Source of the DNA: Pseudodesulfovibrio hydrargyri
GTDB lineage: Bacteria > Desulfobacterota > Desulfovibrionia > Desulfovibrionales > Desulfovibrionaceae
DNA: 64,000 nucleotides
Direction: 5' to 3'
NCBI RefSeq assembly: GCF_001874525.1
Contig: NZ_LKAQ01000004.1
Span: 62,001-126,000, forward strand
Part shown: positions 28,608 to 34,694 of the stretch, in pieces
How the letters are laid out: each line of letters begins with the position of its first letter
How positions within the stretch are numbered: position 1 is the stretch's first letter
Made by a program: the position numbers and the translations under genes
Notes under the pieces: model-generated
What the model was told of the DNA's origin: nothing
Databases searched by the model: none
What the model saw: the letters and a program-made list of their open reading frames with translations, nothing else

Positions 28608-29129
28608 ATGGATCCCCGCGATAATCCGGTGCTCCGAGCCCTCCGCGAGCGCCGCTCCATCCGCAAGTTCACCCCGGAGCCGGTCGACAAGCGGACCCTG
28701 ACGGCCATCCTGGAGGCCGGACAGTGGGCCCCCAGCGGCAAGAACAACCAGCCCTGGCGCTTCCTGGTCGTCACCCGTGACGATCCGCGCATGGACAAGC
28801 TGGCCGCCTGCACCCAATACACGCCCATCGTCCGCGCCTCGGCGGCATGCATCTGCGTATTTCTGGACAAGCGGTCCATGTACAGCGAGATGAAGGACCA
28901 CCAGGGGGCCGGGGCATGCATCCAGAACATGCTCCTGGCCATCCACACGCTGGGCCTGGGCGCGGTCTGGCTGGGCCAGATCGTCAACGACCAACAGGCC
29001 GCCCTGTCCGCCCTGGGGTTGTCCGGGGCCGAACTGGAACTCCAGGCCGTCCTCGCTCTGGGCCACCCGGACCAGAAAGGCGGCTCCAAACGCAAACCCC
29101 TGTCCGAACTCATGCTGGAGGATTTTTGA
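28608..29129 (+). CDS. Nitroreductase-family protein
   Basis: A 173-residue FMN-dependent oxidoreductase. The N-terminal RERRSIRKFTPEPVDK binds FMN phosphate through the RRSxRxF arginines; the middle AGQWAPSGKNNQPWRF and the late LGLGAVWLGQI are family motifs. It reduces quinones, nitroaromatics or flavin-linked substrates. It starts after AAGGAGA and its stop overlaps the next start, opening a redox operon (metallo-beta-lactamase, selenoprotein, flavoprotein, ComF). Confidence 0.93.
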   Translation: MDPRDNPVLRALRERRSIRKFTPEPVDKRTLTAILEAGQWAPSGKNNQPWRFLVVTRDDPRMDKLAACTQYTPIVRASAACICVFLDKRSMYSEMKDHQGAGACIQNMLLAIHTLGLGAVWLGQIVNDQQAALSALGLSGAELELQAVLALGHPDQKGGSKRKPLSELMLEDF

Positions 29130-29749
29130 TGGATATCGTCACGTTCCCGCTGGGGCACATGCAGACCAACTGTTATGTGGTGAGCAACGGCCGCGAGGCC
29201 GTGGCCGTGGACCCCGGCGGCGACCCCGCCCCCCTGATCGACCACCTCGAGGCCAAGGGACTGACCCTGACCGCCATCCTGAACACGCACCTGCACTTCG
29301 ACCACACCGGGGGCAACAAGGCCCTTTCCGAGGCCACGGGCGCGCCGATCATGGCCAACGACGCTGACGCCTACCTCCTGGAGACCTGGCTGGGCAGAGG
29401 CGGCGACATGGGGTTGCCGCCCATCGATCCCTACGAGTGGAAGAACCTCGGGCCGGGCGATACCATCCTTGCCGGGGTCCCGTGTTCCGTCTTTCATACC
29501 CCTGGCCATTCGCCGGGCAGTCTGACCTTCTATTTCCCGGACGCCGGGGCCGCCCTGGTGGGCGATCTGATCTTCTACCGCTCCATCGGGCGCACGGACT
29601 TTCCCGGCGGCGACCTCGACACGCTCAAGCGCTCGGTCCGGGAGCGCATCTTCACCCTGCCGCCCGAGACCAGGCTGTTGTCCGGCCACGGCCCGGAGAC
29701 CTCGGTCGCGGACGAGCAAAACCACAACCCGTTCGTCGGGGGATTCTGA
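29129..29749 (+). CDS. Metallo-beta-lactamase-fold hydrolase (glyoxalase II-like)
   Basis: A 206-residue protein with the metal-binding THLHFDHTGG motif (HxHxDH), a third histidine in TPGHSPGS, an aspartate in ALVGDLIF and a final histidine in LLSGHGPET. The length and GHSPGS region fit YcbL/glyoxalase II-type hydrolases. It begins on the stop of the nitroreductase (TGATG) and ends 2 bp before the selenoprotein start. It is a cytoplasmic hydrolase for a thioester or similar substrate (inference). Confidence 0.92.
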   Translation: MDIVTFPLGHMQTNCYVVSNGREAVAVDPGGDPAPLIDHLEAKGLTLTAILNTHLHFDHTGGNKALSEATGAPIMANDADAYLLETWLGRGGDMGLPPIDPYEWKNLGPGDTILAGVPCSVFHTPGHSPGSLTFYFPDAGAALVGDLIFYRSIGRTDFPGGDLDTLKRSVRERIFTLPPETRLLSGHGPETSVADEQNHNPFVGGF

Positions 29750-29751
29750 CC

Positions 29752-29994
29752 ATGAGCGAGCCCGTTCGCATCGACATCCGCGACAAGTGTTGAGGAGTGG
29801 GACTGGAGGTAGGTTGGTACCTCCGTTTCGCCCTGACGGACCGCGTCGAGGCCCAGGTCGCCCTCAAGGCGGCCCCGCAGGTGCGCCACCAGGCGCACGT
29901 CTTCCCGGACTGGGCCTTCGAGATCGAGGAGTTTGAGGACCACGCCCTTGCGGTCATGACCCGCAGGCAACCCGTGTACGACAAGGAGCCCTGA
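29752..29994 (+). CDS. Small selenoprotein with Cys-Sec motif (in-frame TGA read as selenocysteine)
   Basis: The frame begins at ATG 29752, nine bases after a GGGGG site, and reads MSEPVRIDIRDKC, then TGA at 29791-29793, then GVGLEVGWYLRF and on to a stop at 29994, 80 residues in all with Sec at 14. Support for readthrough: a SECIS-like hairpin starts a few bases later with its GGU loop 18 bases after the TGA, the distance of E. coli fdhF; the reading after TGA is protein-like (VFPDWAFEIEEFEDHALAVMTRRQPVY); and its stop overlaps the next gene's ATG (TGATG) exactly as throughout this operon. The product would hold a vicinal Cys-Sec pair, probably a redox or metal site. I do not recognise the family. 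Ordinary gene callers would end it after 13 codons or start it at GTG 29797. Confidence 0.75.
29805..29824 (+). promoter_or_regulatory. Putative bacterial SECIS element
   Basis: GGAGGTA (29805-29811) and TACCTCC (29818-29824) form a perfect 7-bp stem around the loop GGTTGG. A GGU at the start of the loop is the SelB-recognised feature of bacterial SECIS elements. It lies 18 bases after the TGA at 29791-29793. The bulged U of the E. coli fdhF element is not obvious. Confidence 0.7.
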
Positions 29995-30656
29995 TGGACC
30001 ACGCCGCCGTTTTCGCCTGTTCCCACCGCCGGGGGGGCAACTCGGACCACGCCGCCGTTTTCGCCTGTTCCCACCGCCGGGGGGGCAACTCGGACCACGC
30101 CGCCGAACTGCTGGCCAGGGGGGTGCGCGAGGCGGGCGGCCGGGCCGAGGTGCTTTACGTGCGCGATTTCAAGGTCATGCCCTGCCTGGCCTGCGGCTAC
30201 TGCGACTCGCCGGAGCGGACCGGTCGGGAGCGCTGCGTGCTCGGGACCACGGACCAGGCCTGGGACCTCTTCGCCCACTGCCTGTCCGCCCGGACCATCC
30301 TGTTCGCCTCGCCCATCTACTTCTACCACCTGCCCTCGCGGCTGAAGACCTGGATCGACCGGGGCCAGCAGTTCTGGCGGGCCCGGCTGGACGACGAGCC
30401 GTGGATCAGGGACCTGCCGGAGCGCACGGCCCACGCGGCGCTGCTGGCGGGCCAGCCCTCGGGCGAAAAGCTCTTTGACGGGGCGCGGCTGACGCTCAAA
30501 TATTTCGTCAAGAATTTCAACATGGCCCTGGCCGCCCCCCTGGTCTTCCGGGGGGTGGACACGCGCAGCGACCTGCGGGCCAGGTCCGACTTCGAGACGC
30601 GCATCGTCGAGCTGGGAGCCAAAGCCTGGGAAACCGGCCCGGACCGGACGGGCTGA
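29994..30656 (+). CDS. Flavodoxin-fold NAD(P)H/FMN reductase, iron-sulfur-flavoprotein-like, with duplicated N-terminus
   Basis: A 220-residue protein of the NADPH-dependent FMN reductase/iron-sulfur flavoprotein type. The first strand and phosphate-binding loop (FACSHRRGGNS) are followed by AAELLARGVREAGG, then VMPCLACGYCDSPERTGRERC, a C-x2-C-x2-C-x9-C motif near the iron-sulfur-flavoprotein pattern, and ILFASPIYFYHLPSRLKTWIDR, the usual flavin loop. Sixteen residues at the start (DHAAVFACSHRRGGNS) are repeated exactly by a 48-bp tandem duplication, so two phosphate loops stand in a row; the second alone would suffice. It overlaps the selenoprotein stop and precedes comF by 5 bp. Confidence 0.85.
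   Translation: MDHAAVFACSHRRGGNSDHAAVFACSHRRGGNSDHAAELLARGVREAGGRAEVLYVRDFKVMPCLACGYCDSPERTGRERCVLGTTDQAWDLFAHCLSARTILFASPIYFYHLPSRLKTWIDRGQQFWRARLDDEPWIRDLPERTAHAALLAGQPSGEKLFDGARLTLKYFVKNFNMALAAPLVFRGVDTRSDLRARSDFETRIVELGAKAWETGPDRTG
29997..30092. repeat. Exact 48-bp in-frame tandem duplication
   Basis: Bases 29997-30044 are repeated exactly at 30045-30092, and the first 12 bases (GACCACGCCGCC) occur a third time at 30093, where the native sequence continues. Slippage between the two native copies of that 12-mer would make this duplication. It may be a recent change or an assembly artefact. Confidence 0.9.
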
Positions 30657-30661
30657 CCCGC

Positions 30662-31402
30662 GTGTTCCGGCCGGTCCGAAACCTCGCCCGGCGGCTCGGC
30701 CTGCGGGCCGGACGCTGCGCGGTCTGCTCCGCGATCCTGGCGGACGGCGGCCGTTCCCTGTGCGCGGCCTGCGCGCAGAGTCTGCCCCTGCGCACCGGGG
30801 GGCTGTGCCCGGCCTGCGGGGAGATGTCCGGCCGGGAGGCGGACCCGCCCAGCCTGTGCCCGGAATGCCGGCACGATCCGCCGCCCTGGGACGAACTCTA
30901 TTTCCACGGGCAATACGCCGGGGTCCTGCGCGGCCTGATCCTCGGCTACAAGTTCCACAACCGGTTTGAGCGCAACCGGCTCCTGGCCGCTCTGGCCGTG
31001 GCCGCCTTCTCCGCCCGGCCGGCGCGCGCGCCCGACGCGGTGGTCCCGGTCCCCCTGCACGACCGGCGGCTGGTCTGGCGCGGCTTCAACCAGAGCCTGG
31101 AGATCGCGCGCGGCCTGGCCCGGCACGTGGACAGGCCCCTGCTGGTCCACGGGCTTACGCGCACGCGCAACACCCCGCCCCAGACCCGGTTCGGACTCAA
31201 GGAGCGGCAGGCCAACATCAAGGGGGCCTTTGCGGCGGACCCGGCCTTGGTCAAGGGCAGGCGGCTGCTCCTGGTGGACGACGTGTACACCACGGGCTCG
31301 ACCCTGCGGGAATGCGCCCGGACCCTGAAGCGGGCGGGCAGCAAAGGGGTGGACGTCCTGGTCCTGGCCCGGGCCCAGCGGGAGCCCACCGGACCTCTGT
31401 GA
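30662..31402 (+). CDS. ComF-family phosphoribosyltransferase-like protein
   Basis: A 246-residue ComF-type protein. Zinc-finger cysteines stand at CAVC, CAAC, CPACG and CPEC in the first 65 residues, then a phosphoribosyltransferase domain with VVPVPLHDRRLVWRGFNQS and the PRPP loop RRLLLVDDVYTTGSTLRE. ComF works in DNA uptake in competent bacteria, but distant species keep it for repair or fork-restart roles. It starts at a GTG, 5 bp after the flavoprotein gene, and closes the redox operon. Confidence 0.92.
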   Translation: MFRPVRNLARRLGLRAGRCAVCSAILADGGRSLCAACAQSLPLRTGGLCPACGEMSGREADPPSLCPECRHDPPPWDELYFHGQYAGVLRGLILGYKFHNRFERNRLLAALAVAAFSARPARAPDAVVPVPLHDRRLVWRGFNQSLEIARGLARHVDRPLLVHGLTRTRNTPPQTRFGLKERQANIKGAFAADPALVKGRRLLLVDDVYTTGSTLRECARTLKRAGSKGVDVLVLARAQREPTGPL

Positions 31403-33731: not shown

Positions 33732-34694
33732 ATGACCGACCGTCAGATGCGCTATTTCCTGGCCGTGGCCGAAACCCTGCACTTCCGCAGGGCGGCGGAG
33801 CGGCTGCACATGACCCAGCCGCCGCTGTCCCAGCAGATCGCGTCCTTCGAGGAGGAGCTGGGCGTGCCCCTGTTTACGCGCGACCGCCGGTCCGTGGCCC
33901 TGACCGAGGCGGGCGAAAGCCTGCTGTCGGACGTGCGCCGTATTCTCGCCGACATGGAGGCCGCCGAGCGGCGGGCCGTGGACACGGGACTGGGGCGCGT
34001 GGGCCGATTGCGCGTGGGGTTCATCGGCCCGGCCATCGATGGTCCGCTGGGACCGGACCTGAAGGCGTTTTGCGAAAACCACCCGGGCATCACCCTGGAG
34101 TTGATGGAGAAATCCACCCCGGAGCTGGTGGAGAGGGTCCGGGGCAAGGGGCTGGACGCGGCCGTGGTCAGGGTGTCCGAGCCGGGCCCGGACGGGCTGG
34201 AGCGGCACGTCTACCATCGGGAGAGTTACGTTCTGGCCGTACCCGTCGGTCACCGCCTGGCAAAGGAGCAGGCCGTTGAGACGGAAATGCTCGACGACGA
34301 GCCGCTGATCATGTTCCCGCGCAAGCTGAACCCGGTGCTGTACGACCAGTGGACCGCCATGCTCTCCGGGGCCGGGGCGAGGCTGCGCGTGGCCCAGGAG
34401 GTCCTGACCAAGCACGCCACCGTGGCCCTGGTGGCGGCGGGCCTGGGCGTCTCGCCCGTGCCCCGCTCCACGGCGGACAGCGGGCGCAGGGACGTCACCT
34501 TTATCCCCTTTGCCGTCCCGACACCCGAACTGACCTTTCACCTCATCGCCCGGCCCGAACCTCACGGCCCGGCCCTGGCTACCTTCCTCGCTCAACTCCT
34601 GAAGAAGCCCGGCGCCGAAGGTGCCTTACCGGGGTGCAGAGAGCGAGCCCCAGGACGGGACGAATCAAGGCGATGTCATCCGGGAACGCCGTGA
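33732..34694 (+). CDS. LysR-family transcriptional regulator
   Basis: A 320-residue regulator. The N-terminal winged helix is typical (MRYFLAVAETLHFRRAAERLHMTQPPLSQQI), followed by a co-factor-binding domain (GRLRVGFIGPAIDG, then LVERVRGKGLDAAVV). The last 30 residues (EGALPGCRERAPGRDESRRC) look like translated intergenic sequence, possibly a lost stop. It is divergent from the CMD gene with a palindrome between, so it probably controls that gene and itself. Confidence 0.93.
   Translation: MTDRQMRYFLAVAETLHFRRAAERLHMTQPPLSQQIASFEEELGVPLFTRDRRSVALTEAGESLLSDVRRILADMEAAERRAVDTGLGRVGRLRVGFIGPAIDGPLGPDLKAFCENHPGITLELMEKSTPELVERVRGKGLDAAVVRVSEPGPDGLERHVYHRESYVLAVPVGHRLAKEQAVETEMLDDEPLIMFPRKLNPVLYDQWTAMLSGAGARLRVAQEVLTKHATVALVAAGLGVSPVPRSTADSGRRDVTFIPFAVPTPELTFHLIARPEPHGPALATFLAQLLKKPGAEGALPGCRERAPGRDESRRCHPGTP

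Follow-up and report, generated by a model that had tools for sequence, protein, structure and literature searches.

A widely conserved small gene with an in-frame TGA in Pseudodesulfovibrio hydrargyri most likely encodes a selenoprotein with a predicted TusA-like fold

Proteins of the TusA/SirA family (PF01206), to which we take YeeD and YhhP to belong, are small sulfur carriers. In the Staphylococcus aureus cst operon, a TusA domain stands beside a metallo-beta-lactamase (MBL)-fold protein that acts on sulfane sulfur; that operon differs from the locus described here in its aerobic persulfide dioxygenase, its rhodanese domains, and its lack of selenium, and serves as an analogy only. This study analyzed a 64,000-nucleotide stretch of the P. 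hydrargyri genome (contig NZ_LKAQ01000004.1, positions 62,001 to 126,000; hereafter the window) and concerned a small gene that seems to be broken by a stop codon. The gene most likely encodes a selenium-containing protein and most likely represents a family that ordinary annotation overlooks and that many related sulfate reducers possess. Codon 14, a UGA, is almost certainly decoded as selenocysteine (Sec).

The reading frame comprises 80 codons when the in-frame TGA is counted as one (Table 1), and its translation with Sec reads MSEPVRIDIRDKCUGVGLEVGWYLRFALTDRVEAQVALKAAPQVRHQAHVFPDWAFEIEEFEDHALAVMTRRQPVYDKEP; the product is presumably cytoplasmic. The initial annotation had described the TGA within this frame and a perfect 7-bp hairpin with GGU opening its loop, and both were borne out by the sequence. 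The spacing of 18 bases that it had assigned to the hairpin holds for the distance from the TGA to the apical loop, but not for the hairpin itself, which begins 11 nt after the TGA. The published criteria for a bacterial selenocysteine insertion sequence (bSECIS) are a loop of 3-9 nt, a stem of 4-16 bp, a G in the first two loop positions, a UGA spacing of 16-37 nt, and a minimum free energy of -7.5 or lower (PMC13188914, section 5). The hairpin has a 7-bp stem, a 6-nt loop that opens with GG, and an 18-nt spacing, and the 53 nt at 29788-29840 folded at -25.6 kcal/mol (z -3.8), a value equalled by one of 200 shuffles.

The TGA was conserved well beyond this species. A six-frame protein search of 297 genomes from the same order gave matches in 154, which represent 33 of 55 genera, and among the matches listed every place but one carried TGA, the exception being a second, Cys-containing copy in G201. 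The search queries had Cys at the Sec column, and Cys forms would therefore have scored at least as well. TGA copies were read in 122 distinct genomes, namely 102 of the 154 in the order (90 + 12, mostly on longer contigs) and 20 outside it (2 + 13 + 5); for the rest of the 154, the TGA was taken from the stop column among the matches listed. The TGA always occupied the same column, after a Cys, whose codon in 110 distinct regions was TGC in 70 and TGT in 40. The 20 genomes outside the order came from two phylum-wide searches by profile, covering 297 and 345 genomes, and mostly read DYRGDCU or DSRKDCU; the copies read exclude G012, G027, G084, G126 and others, as well as G459 (E 0.0076), G558 (E 0.0088), and, in the search that gave these last two, all matches above E 0.0134. 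The profiles of the main branch and of this distant branch matched each other (probability 97%, E 6e-11) with no rows in common. The gene was missing from the G110 genome. Two copies within the same genus appeared to be decaying, namely L065 in G197, which has an extra TAA, and L083 in G164, which has an eroded motif; both were left out of the alignment (A1), as were sequences longer than 105 aa and those at least 80% identical.

These data bear on two explanations that involve no Sec. A pseudogene or a sequencing error as the source of the TGA might be suspected from the two decayed-looking copies, but the same TGA occurred in 122 genomes, neither TAA nor TAG occupied its site in any locus read, and a purifying pattern was present on both sides; this conservation ruled out such an origin, the probability of which we consider negligible. 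The second explanation posits two open reading frames (ORFs), that is, a short stop-terminated peptide followed by a stand-alone protein of approximately 65 aa that starts after the TGA. It would account for the protein database matches (15, then 91), which covered only the part after the TGA and, where named, were called hypothetical or uncharacterized, and a GTG at 29797 could serve as its start. However, 34 of 110 regions have no in-frame ATG, GTG, or TTG within 12 codons past the TGA, conservation extends to the CU motif and to the codons preceding the TGA, and the Cys-containing relatives read through without a stop. We consider two ORFs highly improbable.

The hairpin was also conserved as RNA. 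In 98 distinct regions of the main branch, the mean number of stem pairs was 6.53 of 7 and the stem was complete in 75, compared with a synonymous-codon null mean of 4.66 pairs (maximum 4.99 in 1000 draws) and 4.4 complete stems (maximum 10 in 200 draws); the null used the codon usage of the window ORFs, also for other hosts. Shifting the stem partner by 1 to 3 bases in these regions lowered the mean to 2.7-4.7 pairs. The Val codon of the stem was GTA in 49 of the 98 regions, although GTA makes up 2.1% of the codons for Val in the window, and the Leu codon was CTC in 88 (27.5% in the window). When the first fetched locus of each of 28 genera was used and two registers were allowed, 19 had a complete stem (null mean 1.0 and maximum 5); four of the 28, L080, L091, L104, and L133, paired poorly in the main register, but formed 6 or 7 of 7 pairs in the register with a 4-nt loop. 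In the distant branch, after removal of one of the near-identical pair L131/L181, the stem was complete with a 4-nt loop in 16 of 19, and pair 16-29 was A-U in 12 and G-C in 7. Third-position changes between the window gene and 15 relatives amounted to 54 of 180 before the TGA, 8 of 120 in the hairpin codons, and 270 of 735 after the hairpin. This pattern indicates that coding selection acts on the protein both before and after the TGA and that the RNA imposes a further constraint. Conservation downstream of the TGA, which the initial annotation had made a test of its reading, was thus observed; the pairing, codon, and third-position tests correct only in part for relatedness.

The host possesses the machinery for Sec. 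All four components named in the initial annotation were present, each over its cut-off: selA (608.6 bits), selB (386.8 bits), selC (tRNA-Sec; 79.6 bits), and selD (329.2 bits). The host selD (G000:C4:1221975-1222901) contains one in-frame TGA, and its product is probably also a selenoprotein. In the order sample, selB was over the cut-off in 251 genomes, of which 146 carry the family, and not in 46, of which 8 carry it (Fisher 2.7e-7); the selB-negative set was split on E-values, with a clear gap from 1e-60 to 1e-88. Five of the eight selB-negative carriers (G282, G104, G251, G264, and G064) are assemblies broken into 230 to 510 contigs, and their tRNA-Sec is strong (77-86 bits); in G287 and G079 (81 and 77% complete), tRNA-Sec scored 47.3 and 42.0. 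The eighth, G070, has a copy in the same operon that reads CPC instead of CU and contains no TGA. This genome is 85% complete, and absence is therefore not proven, but it yielded no selA match, a selB not over the cut-off, and a tRNA-Sec of 46.8, below gathering; its congeners G009 and G073 have selA, selB, tRNA-Sec, and the TGA. Thirty genomes were checked for selA, which was found in all 27 that carry the TGA gene. Conservation of the TGA, the hairpin, and the protein in 122 genomes, the host machinery, and the Cys replacement in a genome without detected machinery support the initial proposal that this gene specifies a selenoprotein with adjacent Cys and Sec and contains a SECIS of its own.

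Relatives with Cys at the TGA site, for which the initial annotation had suggested a search, do exist. Six further ones were read (L125, L126, L127, L128, L200, and L214). L125 has CPC and aligns with a one-residue gap. The five stop-free paralogues have CC (G302 and G005), VC (G201), YC (G053), and, in the genome of the window itself, TC (L200, G000:C4:2250720-2250917, DVQHVTCGLVP). The Sec site is Cys in all five, and the preceding Cys has been lost in three, which suggests that function depends on the Sec position. A word-based protein database search missed the host paralogue, and the rarity of Cys forms is therefore not demonstrable from that search.

Family models did not place the protein. 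The window protein and the 58 rows of A1 showed no match to Pfam TusA (PF01206, gathering 28.6 bits), and the CPxP motif of that family was not found in the window protein, which has CUGVG and neither proline; 3 of 15 distant members matched PF01206 below the cut-off (best 22.2 bits). The Pfam scan of the window protein alone gave one chance match (0.12), and the NCBIfam scan gave none at E<=1; among ten diverse relatives, two had one chance-level NCBIfam match each (0.098 and 0.15) to other families. No Pfam or NCBIfam match exceeded any shown cut-off. Whole-alignment scans, which returned E-values only, gave 0.0058 for an unrelated viral family as the best match in one and 1.2e-4 for TusA in another, and Rfam on 351 bases gave a single chance match on the opposite strand.

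The AlphaFold model of the window protein had a predicted local distance difference test (pLDDT) score of 94, and for models of the two branches TusA/SirA structures ranked first (3hz7, 8k1r, 8j4c, 3lvj, and 1dcj). The models, which are predicted and not solved structures, follow a beta-alpha-beta-alpha-beta-beta order with the nucleophile at the start of helix 1, and Cys11 of 3hz7 matches the Sec register in both by end offsets. Foldseek alone gave nothing at E <= 0.001, with 3hz7 and TusA at 0.035, and a profile search of PDB sequences had a best E of 0.73. The fold is very probably TusA-like, and in these computed models Sec would occupy the sulfur-carrier Cys position of TusA. The initial statement that no family could be recognized can be refined by this predicted fold.

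Table 1. Positions of the predicted selenoprotein gene, its elements, and the neighboring genes in the window
Feature	Position	Strand	Remarks
Predicted TusA-like selenoprotein gene	29752..29994	+	ATG 29752, stop TGA 29992-29994; 80 aa, Sec14
Vicinal Cys13 codon TGT	29788-29790	+	directly 5' of the Sec codon TGA; kept in 110/110 Sec regions
Putative Sec codon TGA (Sec14)	29791-29793	+	one column in 122 genomes read
Predicted SECIS hairpin	29805..29824	+	perfect 7-bp stem; loop GGUUGG (29812-29817), 18 nt from UGA
Nitroreductase-family protein	28608..29129	+	PF00881 5e-27; conserved upstream, 86/131 loci
MBL-fold metallo-hydrolase	29129..29749	+	PF00753 1.1e-31; conserved upstream gene
NADPH-dependent FMN reductase family flavoprotein	29994..30656	+	PF03358 6.8e-12; conserved adjacent gene
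Conserved downstream gene	30662..31402	+	matches in 99/131 loci

The gene lies in a conserved neighborhood. Its terminal TGA shares a base with the next ATG (29994-29996), and the nitroreductase and MBL genes overlap likewise; the initial claim of TGATG overlaps throughout the operon fails at the start of the selenoprotein gene itself, where 2 nt separate the previous stop (29747-29749) from the ATG. Upstream, an MBL hydrolase gene in the same orientation was present in 101 of 115 order loci and 105 of 131 overall, and the FMN reductase gene lay beside the gene in 103 of the 115; both were missing within the flank in 12. The 115 loci are those of the order with a Sec (or CPC) copy, and the set of 131 also contains paralogues, 13 GTDB loci that in part duplicate other genomes, and flanks down to approximately 0.65 kb. 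The last gene in Table 1 is presumably ComF-like, a name given without a scan. The FMN reductase gene starts with a perfect in-frame 48-nt tandem duplication at 29996-30091 (DHAAVFACSHRRGGNS twice), which is either real or an assembly artefact.

In the distant branch, a LysR match ended within 32 nt of the start, or overlapped it by 1 nt, in 6 of 15 loci, and the two LysR proteins scanned exceeded the cut-off of 250 bits for NF040786 (LysR_Sec_metab, selenium metabolism-associated) with 274.3 and 259.2 bits. Four of the 15 distant loci, which belong to the DSRKDCU branch (L130, L182, L187, and L190), have the same kind of gene directly downstream, which we take to encode a tRNA-dihydrouridine synthase. 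The adjoining regulator raises the possibility of a selenium sensor or delivery protein, made in full length only if selenium suffices, whose Sec carries selenium towards SelD or signals the LysR regulator; the TusA-type protein YedF is also tied to selenium metabolism in the available text of PMC5322559. In the window, however, no such regulator adjoins the gene, and the LysR at 33732-34694 scored only 97 bits against the cut-off of 250. We regard a sensor or delivery role as unlikely.

A selenium or sulfur carrier of TusA-like fold is, as a whole, probably the best explanation of this selenoprotein. SelB and tRNA-Sec would read the UGA under the direction of the hairpin, and the fold would place Sec14 at the start of helix 1, the site of the persulfide-carrying Cys of TusA, with Cys13 alongside. 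A Sec selenolate at this carrier position suggests uptake and transfer of sulfur or selenium: it would most likely accept an atom of sulfane sulfur or of selenium, or else form a Sec-Cys selenylsulfide. We infer that the operon flavoenzymes and the MBL hydrolase are the partners to which the cargo would be handed on, or by which Sec would be reset; Cys13 could resolve the loaded Sec as a selenylsulfide, which the flavoenzymes could reset. The carrier role taken by itself is evenly balanced. A purely redox function has a smaller though substantial chance, with Cys13-Sec14 cycling between selenolthiol and selenylsulfide and reducing a disulfide, a peroxide, or a nitro-type substrate with the flavoenzymes, without chalcogen cargo. 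The invariance of Cys13 and the conserved flavoenzyme neighbors are consistent with this function, and a 2026 review deems redox functions likely for most uncharacterized selenoproteins (PMC13188914); by contrast, three of the five Cys paralogues dropped the first Cys and retained the Cys at the Sec site, and the models place Sec at the TusA carrier position. The metal-binding role that the initial annotation also considered, at which no test was aimed, gained no support from these results. More tentatively still, this protein may belong to a TusA-type chalcogen relay with a genetically encoded Sec carrier, in which a protein-bound selenopersulfide or perselenide, under a LysR selenium regulator in one branch, would link selenium supply to sulfur and selenium trafficking across the phylum. 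A Sec at the sulfur-carrier site, if true, would make discrimination between selenium and sulfane sulfur, and their delivery, directly testable.

The family was compared with the 119 selenoprotein families catalogued in Table 1 of PMC13188914 by names and motifs, and by sequence where models exist; no TusA/SirA entry was found there, the family was not recognized among the entries, and the main text of that paper mentions neither TusA nor SirA. A search of open-licence papers without supplements for a TusA, SirA-like, or UPF0033 selenoprotein, including the available text of PMC2432076, PMC5322559, and PMC4607533, showed YedF as linked to selenium and not as a selenoprotein, and an earlier mention is possible; the text of PMC8318568, its table apart, lists an unspecified Sec-containing sulfurtransferase. 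According to the available text of the deep-Sep paper (PMC12013277), filtering may remove selenoproteins that have no Cys homologues. Its test genomes of 2,783,374 and 3,886,744 bp have 0 in the column read as new candidates, and we infer that they are G052, which has the intact member L111, and G197, which has the decayed L065. Predictors that filter by homology may lose such families. The present findings add a widespread and apparently uncatalogued family; the copies read generally have Sec and only exceptionally Cys.

Several described proteins resemble the window protein in part. Its vicinal Cys-Sec is shared by the catalogued SaoC, SaoL, KCU-star, HgcA, MbdU, and CopZ form 2 (PMC13188914, Table 1), although no NCBIfam model matches it. 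YedF, which joins a SirA-like and a DsrE-like domain, is likewise a TusA-like domain linked to selenium, by gene context; in the available text of PMC5322559 and PMC2432076, however, it has CPxP and a DsrE domain and is not described as a selenoprotein, whereas the window protein has a single domain with Sec. The host also encodes two ordinary PF01206 matches. Compared with the TusA/SirA/YeeD (TsuB) family, the window protein has Sec for Cys, an extra vicinal Cys, and CUGxG in place of CPxP (in the distant branch, CU followed by K, R, S, A, or W), but it resembles that family in its predicted fold, its size, the Asp-x-Arg before the active residue, and the nucleophile at the start of helix 1.
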